Shown here: positions 5,598 to 50,573 of the stretch, one piece after another
How the letters are laid out: each line of letters starts with the position of its first letter
Position numbering within the stretch: the first letter of the stretch is position 1
Source: Microbacterium sp. W4I20
GTDB lineage: Bacteria > Actinomycetota > Actinomycetes > Actinomycetales > Microbacteriaceae
Direction of reading: 5' to 3'
Assembly: GCF_030816505.1 (NCBI RefSeq)
Contig: NZ_JAUSYB010000001.1
Span: forward strand, 1,426,001-1,490,000
DNA length: 64,000 nucleotides
Made by a program: the position numbers and the translations under genes
The notes under the pieces: generated by a model
Database searches by the model: none
Told to the model about the DNA's origin: nothing
Seen by the model: only the letters and a program-made list of their open reading frames with translations

Positions 5598-6125
5598 ATG
5601 AGTTTGATCCAGGGATACGACCAGGAGACCCTCCGTGAGCGTGTCGATGTCGCCGAGTGCGCCGCGCGTCTTGCAGAGATCGAGTCGCAGCGCAGCCTTC
5701 CCGCGCTCCTCGAGCGCGTGTGGCTGCTCAAGGTGCTCGATCGCCTCGACGAGGCCCTCGTGCTGGCCGACGAGACCGTGCGACAGGCACGCATGGCGGG
5801 CACGCGCAAAGACGTGCTGAGGGCACGGGTGCTGCACGCCACGATCCTGCAGTACCGCGGCTCGTACGCCGCCGCGGAGCAGGAGCTGGCGACGTGCGCC
5901 GACGAGGCCGAGGGGCAGCGGTGGGTCTCGATCGCGGCGTTCGCGCACCACCATCACGGCAAGAACGCCTATGACGCGGGCGACTTCGAGACGGCCAGGG
6001 AGAGCTTCAAGCGCTCCCTATTCCTGCGGCGCGAATCGGGTGCCGAGGACAAGGACCTCGAGACCGCCCTGCTCGCGATCGAGGCGGCCGAGCGTCGGCG
6101 TTCCACGCAGCTCGTCGCGGGCTGA
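5598..6125 (+). CDS. Tetratricopeptide-repeat-like helical protein
   Basis: A 175-aa soluble protein made of paired amphipathic helices. Segments such as LLERVWLLKVLDRLDEALVL, RARVLHATILQYRGSYAAAE, AAFAHHHHGKNAYDAGDFET and ARESFKRSLFLRRESGAE have the spacing of TPR repeats (small residues at the conserved positions, A/G-x-Y and ALxL). The N-terminal HGKNAYDAGDFETARESF repeat is the clearest. No enzymatic motif is visible, so the likely job is protein-protein binding. The ATG at 5598 is preceded by GGAAGGAGAG. The partner is unknown. Confidence 0.8.
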   Translation: MSLIQGYDQETLRERVDVAECAARLAEIESQRSLPALLERVWLLKVLDRLDEALVLADETVRQARMAGTRKDVLRARVLHATILQYRGSYAAAEQELATCADEAEGQRWVSIAAFAHHHHGKNAYDAGDFETARESFKRSLFLRRESGAEDKDLETALLAIEAAERRRSTQLVAG

Positions 6126-6170
6126 GCACGCCTGACCCGCGATGTCGGCGGGATGGCCTAGCCTGATCGC

Positions 6171-6659
6171 ATGGCGGAACTTGACCGTGTGCGCATCTGG
6201 GGCGAGGCACTGATCAGGATGCATCTCGATGACAGCTGGTCCTTCGACTTCGACCATGCGAAGCGCCGTGCCGGACTCTGCGACTACACGAAGAAGCGCA
6301 TCACCGTGTCGCGATATCTCGCGGCGCGGTTCGACGATGACGAGATCCATCAGGTGCTGCTGCACGAGGTGGCGCACGCGATGGCCGGGCACACGGCGGC
6401 CCACGGTGCGGCGTGGAAGCGCGTCGCGCGCGACATCGGCTACGTCGGCGGCACCACGCATCGGGGTGAGACCGCGGTCGAACTCGCACCGTGGGTCGGC
6501 CGCTGCCCCGCCGGGCACGTGACGTATCGGCACCGTCGTCCGACGCGAGCCACATCCTGTGCACGATGCTCGCGCACGTTCGATCAACGGCACGTGTTCG
6601 CCTGGACGCGACGCGAGATCACGACCGACACCCGGCTCGCCGCGCAGATGTCGCGCTGA
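6171..6659 (+). CDS. SprT-like zinc metalloprotein
   Basis: A 162-aa SprT-family protein. The zinc-peptidase signature HEVAHAMAGH lies at residues 65-74 (catalytic HExxH 65-69), followed by a third His in GAAWKRVA/GTTH context. A C-terminal zinc-ribbon-like part has Cys pairs in GRCPAGH and SCARCSRTF. SprT/Spartan proteins of eukaryotes cut DNA-protein crosslinks; the bacterial ones are much less studied, so that role is only a family inference. ATG 6171 follows TAGCCT by 6 nt, again a leaderless start. No obvious operon partner. Confidence 0.85.
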   Translation: MAELDRVRIWGEALIRMHLDDSWSFDFDHAKRRAGLCDYTKKRITVSRYLAARFDDDEIHQVLLHEVAHAMAGHTAAHGAAWKRVARDIGYVGGTTHRGETAVELAPWVGRCPAGHVTYRHRRPTRATSCARCSRTFDQRHVFAWTRREITTDTRLAAQMSR

Positions 6660-40815: not shown

Positions 40816-41567
<752 letters not shown>

Positions 41568-41571
<4 letters not shown>

Positions 41572-42365
41572 CGCTGCCTTGCCATCCGTCGTTCCAGGTA
41601 CGCACTGAAGCGCGTGAGAGGGATCGTCACGATCAGGTACAGGATCGCCGCCATGATCAGCGGCGTCGCGTTCGTGTTCTGCGTCGCCGCGTCACGGGCG
41701 AAGTTCGTCAGCTCCTTCGACCAGATGAACGTTCCCGCGACGAAGAGCAGCGAGGTGTCCTTCAGCAGCAGCACGAACTCGTTCGTGAGCGGCGGGATGA
41801 TGATGCGGAAGCCCTGCGGCACGATGATCCAGAACGTCGTCTTCATGGGCGACATGCCGAGCGATCGGGCCGCCTCCGTCTGGCCCTTCGGAACAGCCTG
41901 GATGCCGGCACGGATGGTCTCCGCCATGTAGGCCGAGGCCACCAGGATGAGACCGATCAGCCCGAGCACGACCGGTCCGCCGAGGTCGCGGCCCGAGACC
42001 CCGGACGCGATCGGCAGGATGAACGCCACGCCGAAGATCGTGAGGATCGCGGGAAGTCCGCGGAACAGTTCGATCCACGCGGTGGCGATCCACCGGAACG
42101 GACCGATGCTGGAGAGCTTCAGCAGGGCGAGGATGATGCCGAGCAGGAGCCCCGCCGCGAAGGCCACGGCGGTGAACCAGATGGTGTTGACGAGAGCGGT
42201 CGTAATGATCCCGGGGAACATCTTGACCGCGACCTCAGGATTGAAGAACAGCGGTCCGATCTTCGCCCAGTTGGTCGTGACCGCCGCCCAGACGACGATC
42301 GCGATCAGCACCGCGTAGACGATGTACCGATAGAGCTTCTGCTTGGTGGTTCGCCTCAACGCCAT
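41568..42365 (-). CDS. Polar amino acid ABC transporter permease (GlnP-like)
   Basis: A 265-aa permease of the HisM/GlnP group. It has a basic N-terminus, about five or six helices, and the EAA-type loop ([32 protein letters not shown]). I choose ATG 42365, preceded by GAAGGGA at 8 nt; a TTG two codons earlier is the longer alternative. The stop overlaps the ATPase start. It should form a homodimeric channel with the adjacent ATPase. Confidence 0.92.
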
Positions 42366-42399
42366 CGTCAAGGTCCCTTCGATCCTCGCCCGCCCCGCG

Positions 42400-43218
42400 T
42401 CACTTGACCCCGAGGTAGGTGTCGTAGATCTTCTGGTACTCGCCGTTGTCCTGGAGCTTCTTCAGCGCGCCGTTGACCGCGTCGAGAAGCTCATCCTTCT
42501 CGCCCTTCGCGAAGGCGAAGCCGTACTGCTCGTCGGTGTTGTACGTCTCGACGATCTTGTAGGCGGAGTCATCCTGCTCGTGCACGTAGTTCACCGGCTG
42601 GTCCTGCAGGATCGCATCGATCAGGCCCGACTGCATGGCCGGCCACAGCTCACCGTCGGAGGGGTACTGCACGATCTGCGCGCCCTTCGCGTTCTCGGTC
42701 GCGTAGCTCTCGCCCGTCGTGCCCTGCTGCACACCGACGTTCTTGCCGTCCAGGTCGTCGATCGACTTGATGTCGGAATCGGCGCTCACCAGCAGCGACT
42801 GCAGCGAGTCGACGTAGGGGTCGGAGAAGTCGATGTTCGCCTTGCGCTCGTCGGTGATCGTCATCGCCGAAGCGCCGACATCACACGTGCCCGCGGCGAG
42901 CGTCGTTCCGGACTGGAGTGCGTCGAATCCGACATCCTGCACGGAGATCTTGAGGTCGAGCTCCTTCGCGATCGCGGTGAGCAGATCGATGTCGAAGCCG
43001 ATGTACTCTCCGTTGTCGCCCTCGAACTCGAAGGGTGCGTAAGGGATGTCGGAGCAGACGGTCAGCGTGCCCGCCTCGACAAGGCCGTACTCGTCACCCG
43101 CTGCCGGCTCTCCGCCGCCTTCGGAACCGTTGCCTCCCGCGCCGGTGGCGCATCCGGTGAGGACGAGGGTGGCGGTGGCCGCGAGGGCGAGACCGGCGAC
43201 GAGGGTGCGACGTTGCAT
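42400..43218 (-). CDS. Polar amino acid-binding lipoprotein (SBP family 3)
   Basis: A 272-aa receptor for the amino acid importer. The signal ends LVLTGC with lipidated Cys 23. The family-3 motifs are LTVCSDIPYAPFEFEGDNGE, YIGFDIDLLTAIAKELDLKI, and AMTITDERKANIDFSDPYVD. KNVGVQQGTTGESYA lines the domain hinge. RBS TAGGAG precedes ATG 43218. The upstream region (43219-43360) holds a TTAGAT -10-like box near 43268 on this strand. Substrate is a polar or charged amino acid. Confidence 0.94.
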   Translation of the reverse strand: MQRRTLVAGLALAATATLVLTGCATGAGGNGSEGGGEPAAGDEYGLVEAGTLTVCSDIPYAPFEFEGDNGEYIGFDIDLLTAIAKELDLKISVQDVGFDALQSGTTLAAGTCDVGASAMTITDERKANIDFSDPYVDSLQSLLVSADSDIKSIDDLDGKNVGVQQGTTGESYATENAKGAQIVQYPSDGELWPAMQSGLIDAILQDQPVNYVHEQDDSAYKIVETYNTDEQYGFAFAKGEKDELLDAVNGALKKLQDNGEYQKIYDTYLGVK

Positions 43219-43360
43219 GTCGGCTCCTATGAGACGAGGGCACGGGCGCCCACGGACAGGTAGGAGATCATCTAAACATGCGGTCCGCCGCGCCGAGGAA
43301 CGCCAGAGACCTCGGCGGATCACGTTTGTGTTGCAAGTGTGACCGATTGTGACGCACTCC

Positions 43361-43380
43361 GCCGTCGCCGCGGCGACGGC
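43361..43380. promoter_or_regulatory. Perfect 20-bp palindrome upstream of the Lys/Ala-rich gene
   Basis: GCCGTCGCCG/CGGCGACGGC is an uninterrupted palindrome of 20 bp in the 248-nt divergent region. A plausible -10 box TATCCT follows at 43410-43415. It could be an operator for the gene set at 43.4-49.4 kb; no cognate regulator is identified. Confidence 0.5.
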
Positions 43381-43466
43381 TGCGGTACCAACTGTTCACT
43401 TTGGGTGACTATCCTCTGTGCCCACAGACATGAGCGATGGCGCTCCGGATGCAGGGAGAACAGATC

Positions 43467-44135
43467 ATGGCAAAGAAGACCACCGCGCAGCGCACCGCAG
43501 AAGCCGCCGTCGATGCGGCCAAGGATGCGGCGAAGGACGCGAAGAAGCTGATCAAGGCGCTGCCGAAGAAGGCAGCCAAGAAGCTCAAGCCGCTCGTCGA
43601 AGACGCCAAGGATGCCTCGAAGGTGTCGAAGAAGAAGCTCGCCGACAAGCCGAAGAAGGTCACGAAGTCCGCGACCGCGGCGACCGCGCGCCTGCAGGAT
43701 GCCGCGGCGCGACTGCACGCCAAGCAGAAGGCCGATGAGAAGGCAGAGCAGAAGAAGGCCGACAAGAAGGCAGCGGACAAGAAGGCGGCCAAGAAGTCCG
43801 CAGAGAAGCCGAGCGCCGACGCAACCGCATCGAAGGAAGTGGTGAAGGCCCCCGCCACCGCTGTCCCCGCGATCCCGACTCCGACTGTGGAGCCCGGCTC
43901 CCCCGCGGTGAAGACTCCGACCGTGAAGCCGACCCGCCGCGTCAAGACCCCGGTGATCACGGCGCCGACCGTCGAGGTGACCACGGTCGCGTCGCACGCC
44001 AACACCGCGCCTCTGCCCACCGGAGACCTGTCCGGGCTCACCCTCATCGAGTTGCGGGCACGCGCCCGCGCAGAGGGTCGTGCGGGATACTCGCGCCTCT
44101 CGAAGGCCGCTCTGATCGACCTCCTTGCCCGCTGA
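43467..44135 (+). CDS. Lys/Ala-rich basic protein with C-terminal Rho-N/SAP-like motif
   Basis: A 222-aa low-complexity protein. Residues 1-about 130 are dominated by Lys and Ala (AKKTTAQRTAEAAVDAAKDA, KADKKAADKKAAKKSAEKPS), as in histone-like tails. A Pro/Thr-rich linker follows (about 135-180). The last 35 residues, LSGLTLIELRARARAEGRAG then YSRLSKAALIDLLAR, resemble the Rho N-terminal or SAP-like helix-extended-loop-helix that binds nucleic acid. RBS GGGAG precedes ATG 43467. Its stop lies within or next to the start of the NRPS gene, so the two are co-transcribed. A chromatin role is plausible; a direct link to poly-lysine chemistry is only suggestive. Confidence 0.82.
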   Translation: MAKKTTAQRTAEAAVDAAKDAAKDAKKLIKALPKKAAKKLKPLVEDAKDASKVSKKKLADKPKKVTKSATAATARLQDAAARLHAKQKADEKAEQKKADKKAADKKAAKKSAEKPSADATASKEVVKAPATAVPAIPTPTVEPGSPAVKTPTVKPTRRVKTPVITAPTVEVTTVASHANTAPLPTGDLSGLTLIELRARARAEGRAGYSRLSKAALIDLLAR

Positions 44136-47100
44136 CGTGCAGGCGGCGCTGGACCGCACCGCGGAGGCGACGGCGCCGCGCACGCTCATCGACATCCTCC
44201 GCGAGACGACGGCTCAGCACCCGGAGGCATCCGCGATCGAGGATGCCGACGGGGCACTGAGCTACTCCGAACTGCTGGCGCGCGTCTGGCGCACCGCGGC
44301 GCTGCTGCGCGAGCACGGCGTGGGCCGGGGAGACCGCGTCGGCATCCGGATGGCCTCGGGGCGACGCGAGCTCTACATCGCGATCCTCGGCGCCATGGCG
44401 GCCGGTGCGGCGTACGTCCCGGTCGACGCCGACGACCCGGAGGAGCGCGCCGAGCTCGTGTTCGGCGAAGCCCGCGTCGTCGGCACCATCACCGGTACCG
44501 GCGCGTACCACCCCGCCGCCACGGCACCCGCGGCCGAGCTCTTCGACGGCGAGAACCCGCACCCGAGCACGGCGGCCGTTCCGGTCATCACGCCGCCGAC
44601 CGTCGACGACGACGCCTGGATCATCTTCACCTCCGGCTCGACCGGTGTGCCCAAGGGCGTCGCGGTGTCGCATCGCTCCGCCGCGGCGTTCGTCGACGCC
44701 GAGGCCCGGCTGTTCCTGCAGGATTCCCCACTCGGCCCCGGCGACCGCGTGCTGGCGGGGCTGTCCGTCGCCTTCGACGCGTCGTGCGAGGAGATGTGGC
44801 TCGCCTGGGGTCACGGCGCGTGCCTCGTCCCCGCGCCGCGCGCCCTGGTGCGCTCGGGCGAGGATCTCGGGCCCTGGCTGCTCGGGCACGGCATCACGGT
44901 CGTGTCGACGGTCCCGACGCTCGCCGCGCTCTGGCCGCAGGACGCGATCGAGAACGTGCGTCTGCTGATCTTCGGCGGCGAAGCCTGCCCGCCCGAGCTG
45001 GTCGCCCGGCTCGCCTCCGACGGCCGCGAGGTCTGGAACACCTACGGCCCGACCGAGGCCACCGTCGTCGCCTGCGCCTCCCTGATGGAGGCCGCAGGCC
45101 CGGTGCGGATCGGACTGCCCCTCGACGGCTGGTCGCTGGCCGTCGTCGATGCCTCCGGCGAGCGCGTTGCCGAGGGCGAGACCGGCGAGCTCATCATCGG
45201 CGGCGTCGGCCTGGCACGTTATCTCGACCCCGCGAAGGACACCGAGAAGTACGCCCCGATGCCCACCCTCGGCTGGGACCGGGCCTACCGTTCCGGCGAC
45301 CTCGTGCGGTTCGAATCCGAGGGACTGCTGTTCCAAGGTCGCGCTGACGATCAGGTGAAGATCGGCGGCCGGCGCATCGAGCTCGGCGAGGTCGAAGCCG
45401 CGCTGCAGGCGCTCACGGCGGTGTCGGCGGCGACCGTCGTCGTGCAGAAGACCGAGAGCGGGATGCCGCTGCTGGTCGGCTACGTCGTGCCCGACGAGGG
45501 ATTCGACCGCCAGACCGCCCGCGCAGAACTCTCCGAGACGCTGCCCGCTCCGCTCATCCCGCTGCTCGCGATCATCGACGACCTCCCGGTGCGCACCTCC
45601 GGCAAGGTCGACAAAGCGGCGCTTCCGTGGCCGCTCGAATCCGGGGATGGCGGAGACTCGTCACTCTCCGGCACCTCGGCCTGGCTCGCCGAGCAGTGGT
45701 TCGCCGTGCTCGGCATCCGTCCGACCGATGAGGATGCCGACTTCTTCCAGCTCGGTGGCGGATCGCTTGCGGCGGCCCAACTCGTCTCGCGGCTGCGCAC
45801 GCGCGCGCCCGAGTTCACGATGACCGACGTGTACGACCTGCCCCGACTGCGCCAGATGGCGGATGCCGTCGAGGACGAGACCGACGCCGAGGCGGAGCAG
45901 GGCGACCGGGCCTTCAGCCGGCAGACGCCGACACCGCGCCGCATGCAGTGGGTGCAGACACTCGCCGGGTTTCCGCTCTTCGTGTTCACCGGCATCCGCT
46001 GGCTGCTCTTCCTGCTCACCGCCAGCTGGCTGCTGCGCCTCTCCCCCGGTTTCGAGTTCCTGCCCGACGTCTCGGGCTGGGTCGTGCTCACCGGGCTGGT
46101 GATCTTCGCCACCCCGCTCGGCAAGATGGCGATCGCGGCGGCCGCTGCACGGCTGCTGTTGGCGGGCGTCCGGCCGGGCGACTATCCGCGCGGCGGCGGC
46201 GTGCACCTGCGGCTCTGGCTCGCCGAGCAGATCGCGCAGCAGGTGGATCCGGTCGGTCTCGCCGGCGCCCCCTGGGTCGTGTACTACGCCCGCGCGCTCG
46301 GCGCCCGCATCCACCGGGACGTCGACCTGCACACCGTGCCGCCGATCACCGGCATGCTCGACATCGGCGCCGGTGCCTCGATCGAACCCGAGGTCGACCT
46401 GACCGGGTATTGGATCGACGGCGACACGGTGCGCATCGGCAGCATCCGGATCGGCGCCGATGCGATGATCGGCGCGCGCAGCACCCTCGCCCCCGGCACG
46501 AAGATCGGCCGCGGCGCGGAGGTCGCCCCGGGGTCCGCGGTGTTCGGGAGGGTTCGCGCCGGCCAGCGCTGGGCCGGGTCTCCCGCGGCCCGCACCGGCG
46601 GGGTCTCCACGCCGTTCGCCACCACGCGCCCCCCGAGCAAGCGGCGCTGGCTGTGGGCCTTCGCCGCATCCTCCGCTGCCCTCGGCATCCTGCCCCTCGT
46701 GGCATTCGCCGCCGGTGCCGTCGTTCTCTCCGCGGGCATGCGCGGCGCGGACTCGCTGCTCGATGCGATCCCCGGCGCCCTCGCGATGCTCGTGCCGGCC
46801 GTCCTGGTCACCGGCGCCGTCTTCGCCCTGCTGGTCCTGCTCCTCGTGCGACTGCTCGGAATCGGGCTGATCGAGGGCGTCTTCCCGGTGCGCTCGCGCG
46901 TCGCCTGGCAGGCCTGGACGACCGAACGCCTGCTCGACTCGGCTCGCACGTTCCTGTTCCCGCTGTACTCCAGCGGCTTCACGCCGCTGTGGCTGCGGGC
47001 GCTGGGAGCGGAGGTCGGCCGCGACGTCGAGGCATCGACCGTGCTGCTGATCCCGAAGCTCACGACCATCGCCGACGGGGCCTTCCTCGCCGACGACACC

Positions 47101-48060
47101 ATGGTCGCCACCTACGAACTGCAGGGTGGGTGGATGCGGCTCGCGAAGGCGCGCATCGGCAAGCGGGCCTTCCTCGGCAACTCCGGCCTGGCCGCCGGAG
47201 GGCACAACGTCCCGAAGGATGGGCTGGTCGCCGTGCTGTCGGTGGCACCGCTGAAGGCGAAGGCCGGGTCGTCCTGGCTGGGCTCGCCGGCGACGCGTCT
47301 CCGCCGCGTGGTGAACGACTCCGACCTCGAGCGCACATATCGGCCGCGCACCGGGCTGCGCTACGCCCGCGCACTCTGGGAGATCTGCCGGGTCATCCCG
47401 GTGTTCGTGACCTGTGCGATCGGACTGGCCGTGATGCTGTCGCTCGCCGTACTCATCGAGGCCGTGGGGCTGCCCTGGGCCGTCGCCCTCTCCCCCGCGG
47501 TGATGCTGATCGCCGGCGCGTTCGCGGCGCTGATCACGACCGCCGCGAAATGGCTCATCGTCGGCCCGATCCGGCCCGGCGAGCACCCGCTCTGGTCGAG
47601 CTTCGTGTGGCGCACCGAGGTGTCGGACACGTTCACCGAGATGGTCGCGGCGCCCTGGTTCGCCAACTCCGCATCGGGCACTCCCGCCCTCGCGATCTGG
47701 CTGCGCACGCTCGGCGCGAAGATCGGCCGCGGGGTCTGGACCGACAGCTATTGGCTGCCCGAACCCGACCTCGTCACCCTCGGGGACGGCGCGACGGTGA
47801 ACCGCGGATGTGTGGTTCAGACGCATCTGTTCCATGATCGAGTGATGAGCATCGATTCCGTCACCCTCGAGAACGGTGCGACCCTGGGGCCGCACAGCGT
47901 GATCCTGCCCGCCGCCACGATCGGAGCGGACGCCACGGTCGGGCCCGCCTCTCTCGTCATGCGCGGCGAGTTCGTCCCCGTGGGCAGCCGGTGGAGCGGC
48001 AACCCGATCGGGCCCTGGCGTGCGGTGAAGGTGCGGTCGTACCAGGCATCCGACGCATGA
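44125..48060 (+). CDS. Pls/PosA-type single-module NRPS (candidate poly-lysine synthetase)
   Basis: A 1311-aa enzyme of the epsilon-poly-lysine synthetase architecture. The adenylation domain (about 1-510) has phosphate loop TSGSTGVPKG at 169-178, NTYGPTEATV, YRSGDLVRF and SGKVDKAAL. The carrier domain (about 520-590) has FFQLGGGSLAAAQL with the phosphopantetheine Ser at 547. The C-terminal half has about six membrane helices and three left-handed beta-helix, acyltransferase-like blocks (about 755-825, 980-1060, 1215-1305). Read on GrsA numbering, the pocket is D218 A219 E222 S261 I282 G284 T306 V314 V315 K494. That is close to the lysine code DAESIGSVCK I recall for bacitracin synthetase. 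The start may be TTG 44125 (overlap with the previous gene) or GTG 44137. Confidence 0.9.
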   Translation: MPADVQAALDRTAEATAPRTLIDILRETTAQHPEASAIEDADGALSYSELLARVWRTAALLREHGVGRGDRVGIRMASGRRELYIAILGAMAAGAAYVPVDADDPEERAELVFGEARVVGTITGTGAYHPAATAPAAELFDGENPHPSTAAVPVITPPTVDDDAWIIFTSGSTGVPKGVAVSHRSAAAFVDAEARLFLQDSPLGPGDRVLAGLSVAFDASCEEMWLAWGHGACLVPAPRALVRSGEDLGPWLLGHGITVVSTVPTLAALWPQDAIENVRLLIFGGEACPPELVARLASDGREVWNTYGPTEATVVACASLMEAAGPVRIGLPLDGWSLAVVDASGERVAEGETGELIIGGVGLARYLDPAKDTEKYAPMPTLGWDRAYRSGDLVRFESEGLLFQGRADDQVKIGGRRIELGEVEAALQALTAVSAATVVVQKTESGMPLLVGYVVPDEGFDRQTARAELSETLPAPLIPLLAIIDDLPVRTSGKVDKAALPWPLESGDGGDSSLSGTSAWLAEQWFAVLGIRPTDEDADFFQLGGGSLAAAQLVSRLRTRAPEFTMTDVYDLPRLRQMADAVEDETDAEAEQGDRAFSRQTPTPRRMQWVQTLAGFPLFVFTGIRWLLFLLTASWLLRLSPGFEFLPDVSGWVVLTGLVIFATPLGKMAIAAAAARLLLAGVRPGDYPRGGGVHLRLWLAEQIAQQVDPVGLAGAPWVVYYARALGARIHRDVDLHTVPPITGMLDIGAGASIEPEVDLTGYWIDGDTVRIGSIRIGADAMIGARSTLAPGTKIGRGAEVAPGSAVFGRVRAGQRWAGSPAARTGGVSTPFATTRPPSKRRWLWAFAASSAALGILPLVAFAAGAVVLSAGMRGADSLLDAIPGALAMLVPAVLVTGAVFALLVLLLVRLLGIGLIEGVFPVRSRVAWQAWTTERLLDSARTFLFPLYSSGFTPLWLRALGAEVGRDVEASTVLLIPKLTTIADGAFLADDTMVATYELQGGWMRLAKARIGKRAFLGNSGLAAGGHNVPKDGLVAVLSVAPLKAKAGSSWLGSPATRLRRVVNDSDLERTYRPRTGLRYARALWEICRVIPVFVTCAIGLAVMLSLAVLIEAVGLPWAVALSPAVMLIAGAFAALITTAAKWLIVGPIRPGEHPLWSSFVWRTEVSDTFTEMVAAPWFANSASGTPALAIWLRTLGAKIGRGVWTDSYWLPEPDLVTLGDGATVNRGCVVQTHLFHDRVMSIDSVTLENGATLGPHSVILPAATIGADATVGPASLVMRGEFVPVGSRWSGNPIGPWRAVKVRSYQASDA

Positions 48061-49376
48061 CCGTCGACCCGTACACCCCGCACAGCGGAGACCGCCGCTA
48101 CGGGGTGCTCCACTACGACCTGTCGCTCGACTACCGGGTCACGACGAATCGACTGGCGGGCACGGCGGTGCTCCGCGTGCGGATGAACGAACCGGCGAAG
48201 CACGTGTCCCTCGACCTCGTCGGACTCAAGGCGACCAAGGTGCGCGTCGCCGGGGATCGAGGAGCGACGTTCCGGCAGGACACCCGACGCCTCAAGGTGC
48301 TCTTCGGCGCGGAGCGCGCGGCCGGTGACGAGCTCACGATCACGGTGGAGTACTCCGGGGCCCCGGCTCCGCGCCGCACGCGCTGGGGCCTCATCGGCTG
48401 GGAGGAGCTGGAGGACGGCGCGCTCGTCGCCTCGCAGCCGACCGGCGCACCCACCTGGTTCCCGTGCAACGACCTGCCCGGAGACCGGGCGACCTATCGG
48501 CTGGAGTTCACGACCGACCCGGGGTACACCGTGGTCAGTGGAGGCGCGGCGACGCGCTCCCTGCAGCGCGGGCGCACACGTTGGACCTTCCAGCAGCCGC
48601 TGCCGACGGCGACGTACCTGATGACGGTCCAGATCGGCCAGTACGCCGACGAGCATGTCGCTCTCGGCGAGACCCCCGGCCGGCTCTACTACCCCCGGGC
48701 GCTCGCTGCCCGTGTGCAGGCCGACTTCGCGCCACTCGGCGAGATGATGCGCGTGTTCGTCGACGCGTTCGGCCCCTACCCCCAGGAGTCGTACAAGGTG
48801 GTCATCACGCCGGACGACCTGGAGATCCCTCTCGAGGCACAGGGGATGGCCATCTTCGGTGCGAATCATGTCGACGGCGCGCGCGGCGAGGAGCGGCTGA
48901 TCGCCCACGAGCTGGCTCATCAGTGGTTCGGGAACAGCGTCGGCGTCGCCCGCTGGCAGGACATCTGGCTGAACGAGGGGTTCGCCTGCTACGCCGAATG
49001 GGTGTGGTCGGAGGCCTCCGGCGGCCCGACGGCCCACGCGCTGGCGCTGTCGCATCACGCACGACTCGCAGCCCTCCCCCACGATCTGTTGCTCTCCGAC
49101 CCCGGCCCGGTGGACATGTTCGACGACCGCGTCTACAAGCGCGGAGCGCTGGCCCTGCATGCACTGCGGCTGACGGTCGGCTCCGACCGGTTCTTCTCCT
49201 TCGCGCGCGAGTGGTCGGCCCGGTTCGCGGGGCTCTCGGTCACGTCCGACGACTTCCTCGGCTTCGTCGACGAGCTCGTCGGCGGAGATGCTCGCGACCT
49301 CATGCGCGGATGGCTCGACGAGCTGCCGCTCCCGGCGCTCCCGCCGGCGCCATCCGTCAACCGCGCGCGGCGCTGA
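48057..49376 (+). CDS. M1-family zinc metallopeptidase, short form
   Basis: A 439-aa aminopeptidase-like protein. The zinc site is HELAHQW, residues 284-290, with the third ligand E307 in IWLNEGFACYAEW, the exact M1 spacing. The substrate-end motif is LEAQGMAIFG instead of the common GAMEN. The N-terminal beta-domain (about 1-200) is present, while the C-terminal helical domain of large M1 enzymes is missing. ATG 48057 overlaps the NRPS stop (ATGA), so the peptidase is made together with the synthetase. Known epsilon-poly-lysine-degrading enzymes are zinc aminopeptidases (from memory), so a matching role in degradation or self-protection is plausible. No signal peptide is visible. Confidence 0.9.
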   Translation: MTVDPYTPHSGDRRYGVLHYDLSLDYRVTTNRLAGTAVLRVRMNEPAKHVSLDLVGLKATKVRVAGDRGATFRQDTRRLKVLFGAERAAGDELTITVEYSGAPAPRRTRWGLIGWEELEDGALVASQPTGAPTWFPCNDLPGDRATYRLEFTTDPGYTVVSGGAATRSLQRGRTRWTFQQPLPTATYLMTVQIGQYADEHVALGETPGRLYYPRALAARVQADFAPLGEMMRVFVDAFGPYPQESYKVVITPDDLEIPLEAQGMAIFGANHVDGARGEERLIAHELAHQWFGNSVGVARWQDIWLNEGFACYAEWVWSEASGGPTAHALALSHHARLAALPHDLLLSDPGPVDMFDDRVYKRGALALHALRLTVGSDRFFSFAREWSARFAGLSVTSDDFLGFVDELVGGDARDLMRGWLDELPLPALPPAPSVNRARR

Positions 49377-49980
49377 GGGTGTAGCCGGTCGGGCCGGGCA
49401 GAGTCGCCACCTGCAGTGGCGAGGCTCTGCCCGGGAGCATCGCCGTCCACTCCGCGGGTTCGACTGCCGCCGGTTCCGGTCGCAGCCGGACGTCGCCGGG
49501 GTCGATCACGATGCCGCGCCCGTCGGCTTTGACCGCCGCTTCGATGCGGGTCCAGCCGGCGAGGTCGGGAGCGGATGCCGCGGAGAACAGCGGCGCCAGT
49601 TCGGCGACCCGGAGCGCGGCGGTGTCGTGCTCGACGTCGACTCCCAGCGGCTCCCGCCCCTGCGCCGCCGCGACGACCACCAGGTCTTCGGCATGGCTCA
49701 CACTCAGCACGAATCCCGGCGTCCGGGGCGCGGCATGATGCTCCCCGCAGCGCGCGCAGACGCTGTCGAGCGGCACGTAGGGCCCGCCGCCCAGTCGGAG
49801 AACAAGCTCGCGGATGAGTGCACGGCCGGCGAGGAACCCTGCGGCCCGAGCCCCGGTCAACTCACGGAATCGCGCGAGCTGCCCCTGACCCATCGCGGCG
49901 AGATCCTCCGTACTCAGCTCCGGGACGTCGGATGCGCGCGCCCAGACGACTGTCGCTCCGCGCCACGTGACCTCGTCCAT
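49357..49980 (-). CDS. 4'-Phosphopantetheinyl transferase, Sfp-type
   Basis: A 207-aa transferase that loads phosphopantetheine from CoA on carrier domains. The Mg-binding motif is PLGVDVEHD, the WxxKEA-type helix appears as WTRIEAAVKADG (the first Lys replaced by Ile, Glu and second Lys kept), and SVSHAEDLVVVA is the other conserved strand. ARCGEHHAAPRTPG is the usual Cys-Gly-x-His-PPPTase N-terminal core. The gene is convergent with the M1 peptidase gene and their 3-prime ends overlap by 20 nt. It is the obvious activator for the NRPS carrier domain at S547. It is last in the minus-strand run of rhodanese, glutaredoxin and Dabb genes. Confidence 0.9.
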   Translation of the reverse strand: MDEVTWRGATVVWARASDVPELSTEDLAAMGQGQLARFRELTGARAAGFLAGRALIRELVLRLGGGPYVPLDSVCARCGEHHAAPRTPGFVLSVSHAEDLVVVAAAQGREPLGVDVEHDTAALRVAELAPLFSAASAPDLAGWTRIEAAVKADGRGIVIDPGDVRLRPEPAAVEPAEWTAMLPGRASPLQVATLPGPTGYTLSAARG

Positions 49981-50013
49981 GTCCCGGTGCCCGATCTCGT
50001 GGGACGAAGCCGC

Positions 50014-50313
50014 TCAGACCTCGAAGTCGACGGCGACGCGGGACTCGACGACGGAGCGGACGTACGCGACGACCTCTTCGTGCGCCGGGTGCACCTGGTA
50101 CTCCTCGAGCGCGGCGAGGGAGGCGAAGTCGGCGACGAGTGTCACATCCCAGTTCGCGCCCGGATACGCCATGTTGGCGCCCGCCGAGATCGAGAGCAGC
50201 TGCGGGACGACCCCGTCGAGCGCATTCAGGCGACGAGCCACCTCGGCGGCCTGCGCTGCTCGGTCGGCCGCGTCCTCGGCGGCGAGCTTCCAGCTCACGA
50301 CATGACGGATCAT
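50014..50313 (-). CDS. Dabb-family (A/B barrel) protein
   Basis: A 99-aa dimeric alpha/beta-barrel protein. IRHVVSWKLAAEDAADRAAQ opens the fold, LLSISAGANMAYPGANWDVT and LVADFASLAALEEYQVHPAH are the characteristic strands. Dabb proteins include polyketide cyclases, heme-degrading-like and stress-responsive proteins, most without known activity. ATG 50313 overlaps the glutaredoxin-like stop (ATGA). It precedes the PPTase by 33 nt. Confidence 0.88.
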   Translation of the reverse strand: MIRHVVSWKLAAEDAADRAAQAAEVARRLNALDGVVPQLLSISAGANMAYPGANWDVTLVADFASLAALEEYQVHPAHEEVVAYVRSVVESRVAVDFEV

Positions 50314-50573
50314 CGGACGGCCTCCTCGAGGGCGACGCGCAGCCGGTCGGGCGAGACCCGCCAGTGCGCATGGAGTTCGCCGTCGATGAGGATGACCGGG
50401 ATCTTTTCCCACCACAGCTCGTACAGTGCGGGGTCGTCCTTGATGGACGCCTCGACGATCTCGATCTGCTCCGCGGCGGCGTCCGGAAGCTCCGCGACGA
50501 CCGCGTCGATCACCTCGGAGGCGACGTCGCAGAGGTGGCAGTCGGGCTTCCCGATCAGCGTCAGCGTGGTCAC
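50310..50573 (-). CDS. Glutaredoxin-like small redox protein
   Basis: An 87-aa thioredoxin-fold protein of the DUF836/glutaredoxin type. The redox motif is GKPDCHLCDVASEVI (CxxC). VILIDGELHAHWRVSPDRLR contains the terminal strand and helix; the cis-Pro sits in KIPVILIDG. The start is GTG 50573, overlapping the rhodanese stop (GTGA). It is translated in a coupled chain rhodanese, glutaredoxin, Dabb. It probably reduces disulfides or accepts sulfur from the rhodanese, a guess from context. Confidence 0.88.
   Translation of the reverse strand: MTTLTLIGKPDCHLCDVASEVIDAVVAELPDAAAEQIEIVEASIKDDPALYELWWEKIPVILIDGELHAHWRVSPDRLRVALEEAVR

Follow-up and report, generated by a model that had tools for sequence, protein, structure and literature searches.

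In Streptomyces albulus, the gene pls, which encodes the synthetase Pls for the antimicrobial polymer epsilon-poly-L-lysine, adjoins with a 4-bp overlap the gene pldII for the main poly-lysine degradase, and the two form one operon (PMC4361855); pldII has been described as translationally coupled to pls, and its repression led to longer polymer and dissolving cells (PMC9223678). Synthetases of the same architecture, also in an operon with a peptidase gene, are known from Corynebacterium variabile and other coryneforms, the C. variabile gene gave rise to epsilon-poly-lysine in Streptomyces coelicolor, and Microbacterium is among the genera for which Pls homologues have been published (PMC8117764). 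The domain architecture is shared by PosA, the delta-poly-L-ornithine synthetase of Acinetobacter baumannii (PMC10522769). Here we compare with these systems a locus at positions 43467 to 49980 of a 64,000-nucleotide stretch of the genome of Microbacterium sp. W4I20 (contig NZ_JAUSYB010000001.1, positions 1,426,001 to 1,490,000 of the forward strand), the whole of which is called the window below. We give a probability of roughly 0.88 to the reading that a Microbacterium-like actinobacterium here carries a locus for the biosynthesis of epsilon-poly-L-lysine, working as in the mechanism proposed below.

Layout of the locus

The four tightly packed genes described in a first-pass annotation of the window are indeed present, and the coordinates bear out both the ATGA by which the start of the third gene overlaps the stop of the second (48057) and the 20-nt overlap (49357-49376) between the 3' ends of the third gene and the convergent fourth:

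43467-44135, + strand: gene for a Lys/Ala-rich protein of 222 amino acids, 39 of them lysine, with a net charge of about +27 and a Rho_N/SAP-like C-terminal motif
44137-48060, + strand: pls, predicted gene for a Pls-type nonribosomal peptide synthetase (NRPS) with an adenylation (A) domain, a thiolation (T) domain, six hydrophobic segments and, towards the C-terminus, three soluble blocks
48057-49376, + strand: gene for a PldII-like M1 zinc metallopeptidase with Peptidase_M1 and M1_N matches and the motif HELAHx18E
49980-49357, - strand: predicted gene for an Sfp-type 4'-phosphopantetheinyl transferase (PPTase), convergent, with conserved active-site residues and a family profile match to Sfp

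Three samples were used for comparison, namely 80 named loci, mostly from Microbacteriaceae but with Miniimonas (L084) and one unclassified actinomycete (L020) among them; 299 genomes from the source organism's own family, 117 with and 182 without Pls; and a wider set of 58 loci with a synthetase from outside this family, 53 of them with a lysine-type code in the A domain, four with a DFE-type pocket and one (L160) that could not be aligned. The host genome is 4.31 Mb in two contigs, and the closest named relatives of its Pls are from Microbacterium. The packing of the genes is beyond chance, because the M1 gene follows pls in all 80 named loci and the PPTase gene follows in 71 of them.

The synthetase and its predicted product

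Several traits mark a synthetase as Pls, among them a single A-T module without condensation or thioesterase domain, six helices that separate three tandem terminal domains, a lysine-type A-domain pocket and an operon with a peptidase gene, and the product of 44137-48060 has each of them, the last as judged from gene layout, by the ATGA overlap and the conservation of the M1 gene in 80/80 named loci. Pfam reports nothing above cut-off in it except AMP-binding, Hexapep and PP-binding, and the condensation motif HHxxxDG is absent from its sequence. TIGR02353, the Pls/PosA terminal domain, is matched over positions 2-695 of its 695 positions, with a score of 729 bits where the cut-off is 423 (E 4.8e-219), and a hydropathy scan gave seven windows, two of them overlapping, which we read as six helices. 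The first-pass annotation had proposed an NRPS of the Pls/PosA type with one A-T module, six membrane helices and beta-helix blocks; Pfam, TIGR02353 and hydropathy agree with it, hexapeptide-repeat matches are present, and the domain search on the C-terminal region, where kinship to Pls might have failed, found the Pls/PosA domain at full length.

The best match of the NRPS in PDB is the A domain of S. albulus Pls (7wew; 620 bits), with 65% identity over 476 aligned residues. The pocket codes, with residues placed by hand in what we take to be GrsA numbering, are DAESLFTVVK for our NRPS and DAESLVTVVK for 7wew, so that one of ten positions differs. The code DAESLFTVVK was found in all 80 named relatives, and among the 53 wider loci with a lysine-type code variation is confined to positions 5 and 6. 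For a quick tree of 69 rows we took 10 loci from the 80 named ones and 57 from the wider set of 58, L160 being the one omitted; in this tree a branch with support 100 separates our NRPS and 7wew from the four DFE rows. We use the tree as corroboration only, because 7wew occupies no more than half of the columns that were kept and there are some long branches.

TIGR02353 spans both Pls and PosA, and enzymes that polymerise other cationic amino acids do exist (PMC10522769), so that an NRPS for ornithine, diaminobutyrate, diaminopropionate or beta-lysine has to be weighed against one for lysine. At pocket position 2, Pls has Ala, PosA has Met and the synthetases for poly-diaminopropionate and poly-diaminobutyrate have Phe (PMC10522769), and our NRPS differs from PosA in having the Ala of Pls. 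In addition, a peptidase operon was absent from the three other synthetases compared in PMC8117764, and of the five wider loci that lack a lysine code four also lack an M1 gene, L146 being the one that has it. On pocket code and M1 context we therefore reject a polymer of another diamino acid, which we hold to be very improbable, and we identify the NRPS from its sequence as a Pls-type synthetase whose predicted product, judged by its characterised relatives, would be epsilon-poly-L-lysine.

The peptidase gene beside pls

The protein encoded at 48057-49376 matches Peptidase_M1 (E 3.9e-26) and M1_N (E 1.7e-13) in Pfam, and its zinc site, of the form HExxHx18E, is complete (residues 284-307). 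In the named loci its counterpart lies on the same strand as pls throughout, and outside the family an M1 gene lies at most 4 kb downstream of pls in 51 of the 53 lysine-code loci. Of 81 pls reading frames (the 80 loci and our own), 71 end in GTGA or ATGA, consistent with a start codon placed over the stop. Among the 299 family genomes, M1 matches above 350 bits, a line drawn after the scores were seen, occur in 116 of the 117 with Pls and in one of the 182 without (G293); weaker matches occur in four further Pls-free genomes (G047, G142, G280 and G282). In 13 sampled loci of f25, a family with large genomes that we guess to be Streptomyces, the surroundings of pls were searched with the M1 hidden Markov model (HMM); 11 of them matched at E 4e-212 or better, L152 at 8e-47 and L160 not at all. 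In its layout the pls-M1 pair is the published pls-pldII arrangement, with an A-T-membrane synthetase followed by a zinc peptidase gene at a 4-bp overlap and a pocket that is the same in all but one residue. The coupling of synthesis and degradation that the first-pass annotation put forward is thus upheld in the sense that the M1 gene is conserved beside pls, an arrangement that was already in print.

Two M1 genes stand apart from this pattern. L146 has a DFE-coded relative of Pls with an M1 peptidase gene about 0.8 kb downstream, and perhaps represents a different cationic polymer with a degrading enzyme of its own. The match in G293 (G293:C16:12614-13927) is possibly a relic, or a protection against poly-lysine made by others.

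The phosphopantetheinyl transferase gene

Taken singly, the protein encoded at 49980-49357 falls below the Pfam cut-offs (E 0.0012 and 0.018), and its likeness to Sfp emerges from the family to which it belongs. In 34 aligned members D115, E117, W143, E147, A148, K151, C75, C78, G79 and H82 are invariant and G113 is nearly so, which yields G-x-D-x-E and W-x3-E-A-x2-K, motifs that we take to be those of the Sfp active site. At E up to 1, ACPS is matched by 30 of the 34 members (best 8.3e-14), and the family profile matches 1qr0 (Sfp) at E 1.7e-8 and also 4mrt, both presumably from Bacillus subtilis. Because of the conserved motifs and the profile match we identify the gene by sequence as that of an Sfp-type PPTase; a spurious minus-strand reading frame is ruled out by the invariant residues together with the match to Sfp.

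A PPTase gene lies downstream of and convergent with the M1 gene in the 71 named loci mentioned above, and 60 of these copies lie no further than 150 nt from the end of the M1 gene. In about half (34/71) the 3' ends of the two genes overlap, an overlap that might allow antisense effects. The other nine loci (L021, L033, L062, L068, L072, L073, L077, L081 and L082) gave no PPTase match, and none of them had a hit when a looser motif was searched for; the sequence of L021 ends about 800 nt past the M1 reading frame. Across the 299 family genomes, a PPTase match at E up to 1e-6, at whatever place in the genome, was found in 114 of 117 with Pls and in 14 of 182 without (Fisher p 4e-62, a value that overstates independence because the genomes are related). 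The PPTase gene, like the M1 gene, is thus a conserved neighbour of pls in related genomes, and lack of such conservation was what the first-pass annotation had named as grounds for giving up its reading.

A general-purpose activator that stands beside pls by chance would account for the 14 Pls-free genomes with a match, for the Pls genomes in which the match is not linked to pls, for the 11 of 71 copies that lie more than 150 nt, and up to about 3 kb, from the M1 gene, and for the wider set, where the link is patchier and only 15 of the 53 lysine-code loci have a PPTase within 6 kb of pls, as judged by an HMM for which nearly all sequences came from the named loci. It would not lead one to expect a match in nearly every Pls genome or the close placement of most linked copies. 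A census of the host genome (E up to 1) also goes against it: PF00550 finds two carriers, Pls and a 166-amino-acid open frame, and PF01648 finds two members of the PPTase superfamily, our gene and an AcpS-like open frame of 122 amino acids, which could serve the one other carrier. We consider the general-purpose activator unlikely. Because of co-occurrence, linkage and this census of two carriers and two PPTases, the Sfp-type enzyme is probably the activator of Pls, and we infer that it would serve mainly Pls.

In having a convergent PPTase gene on the 3' side and a Lys-rich gene on the 5' side, our locus differs from pls-pldII of S. albulus, and the PPTase model matched none of the 13 sampled f25 loci within the stretch examined. 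Among the open PubMed Central papers listed by our searches we found no report of a link between a PPTase and a poly-lysine synthetase; the C. variabile paper does not contain the term phosphopantetheinyl transferase, and no Lys-rich neighbour is mentioned in the parts of it that we consulted (PMC8117764). The core of synthetase and peptidase is already known, Microbacterium homologues included, and the PPTase link is a modest addition to it, as is the Lys-rich neighbour.

The lysine-rich neighbour

The first-pass annotation counted the Lys/Ala-rich gene as part of the system; the gene is there, but its membership in the pathway did not hold up as well, since only 35 of the 80 named loci have it next to pls (same-strand and upstream in 34, divergent in one) and it occurs in a pls-free genome too. 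The family has a conserved Lys/Ala-rich N-terminus and, by alignment, a C-terminal Rho_N-like motif, which Pfam Rho_N detects, with E values of 1 or less, in 19 of 33 members (best 1.4e-6), our own protein being unmatched. Databases name these proteins mostly hypothetical protein and once Rho termination factor, and among the open PubMed Central papers listed by a search for a Lys-rich Rho_N protein connected with polylysine, none dealt with this protein.

A part in the pathway, as regulator, polymer handler or translational gate, is conceivable and we regard it as doubtful. It would agree with the gene's place beside pls in those 35 loci, with a gap of at most 10 nt in 19 of 31 rows, and with the 13 strongest matches among the 299 genomes (E 1.6e-18 or better), 11 of which adjoin pls by coordinates. 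It agrees less well with the 45 loci in which the gene was not found beside pls, with a lysine content that ranges from 7 to 25%, and with the remaining two strong matches, one in the pls-free G235 and the other unlinked in G298. When weaker matches are included, many of which cover no more than the C-terminal part, the tally rises to 164 of 299 genomes, and the motif is therefore widespread in the family, whether pls is present or not. In G235 (L171:7918-9321 (-) and 5741-6616 (-)), the Lys-rich Rho_N-like gene is followed by a reading frame that resembles, by eye, an IS3-type transposase. The tie of this protein to poly-lysine is thus suggestive only.

In our locus GGAG stands directly 5' of the ATG of the Lys-rich gene, and the most likely start of pls is the GTG at 44137, one base past the TGA of that gene. 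The regions upstream of pls were compared where a pls start could be assigned, so that of the 34 loci in which a Lys-rich gene precedes pls on the same strand 4 were dropped and 30 kept (31 rows with our own), and 8 of the other 46 were dropped and 38 kept. A Shine-Dalgarno-like motif is missing before pls in 23 of the 31 rows with the Lys-rich gene and in 30 of the 38 without, and because the absence is equally common in both, the comparison lends no support to the idea that translation of the Lys-rich gene is coupled to that of pls in any special way.

One may nevertheless imagine, as an idea to which we attach very little credence, that translation of this frame gates poly-lysine synthesis. 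With 39 lysine codons among 222, the frame would be completed efficiently only in the presence of ample charged lysyl-tRNA, and only under this condition would ribosomes start anew at pls, one base further on, so that lysine would be committed to polymer only in surplus; the Rho_N-like tail might add control at the level of the transcript, and the adjacent PPTase would license the enzyme.

As for the surroundings, a scan of 43100-50400 for sigma-70 promoters found none. An amino-acid ATP-binding cassette uptake operon lies at 40816-43323 (-), divergent from the poly-lysine locus, with an ATPase and a family 3 solute-binding protein by Pfam and a permease-like reading frame between them by eye; a connection with the supply of lysine to the locus is possible.

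Proposed mechanism

By analogy with the characterised relatives, the Sfp-type PPTase would add a phosphopantetheine arm to Ser543, the serine of the T domain, and the A domain would adenylate L-lysine and load it onto this arm. The membrane-anchored C-terminal domains would then join lysines through isopeptide bonds of the epsilon-amino group until the cationic polymer is released, and the M1 peptidase, translated from the stop codon of pls, would trim or destroy the polymer for self-protection.

Several observations sit less easily with a poly-lysine locus of this kind. The pocket has F where 7wew has V, at one of ten positions. The PPTase is divergent, its single sequence lying under the Pfam cut-offs, which also sets it apart from Sfp; a PPTase without Pls occurs in the 14 genomes noted above, and some Pls genomes (e.g., G007, G178, G203 and G286) have their match away from pls. 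Within the stretch examined, an M1 gene is missing from two of the lysine-code loci (L140 and L152). A simple hydropathy scan found no hydrophobic segment in the M1 protein, whereas PldII has been described as lying outside the membrane (PMC9223678). Finally, C. variabile itself made no detectable polymer, though its gene works in another host (PMC8117764), and our locus could therefore be silent as well.

Significance

The PPTase link has a practical side, in that pls genes moved into foreign hosts may depend on a suitable activator. When C. variabile Pls was produced in Corynebacterium glutamicum, the enzyme was detected and no polymer was (PMC8117764), and it is speculation on our part that a missing activator was the cause. 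The C. glutamicum genome that we used as a control matches TIGR02353 above the cut-off, despite the lack of detectable poly-lysine in this species as a heterologous host (PMC8117764). Since poly-lysine serves as a food preservative, there would also be use for a self-contained cassette taken from a 4.3-Mb genome. For the bacteria themselves, the locus adds one more actinobacterium to those with an epsilon-poly-lysine operon, and in one family the genes predicted to make the polymer, to trim it and to activate its carrier co-occur almost perfectly.

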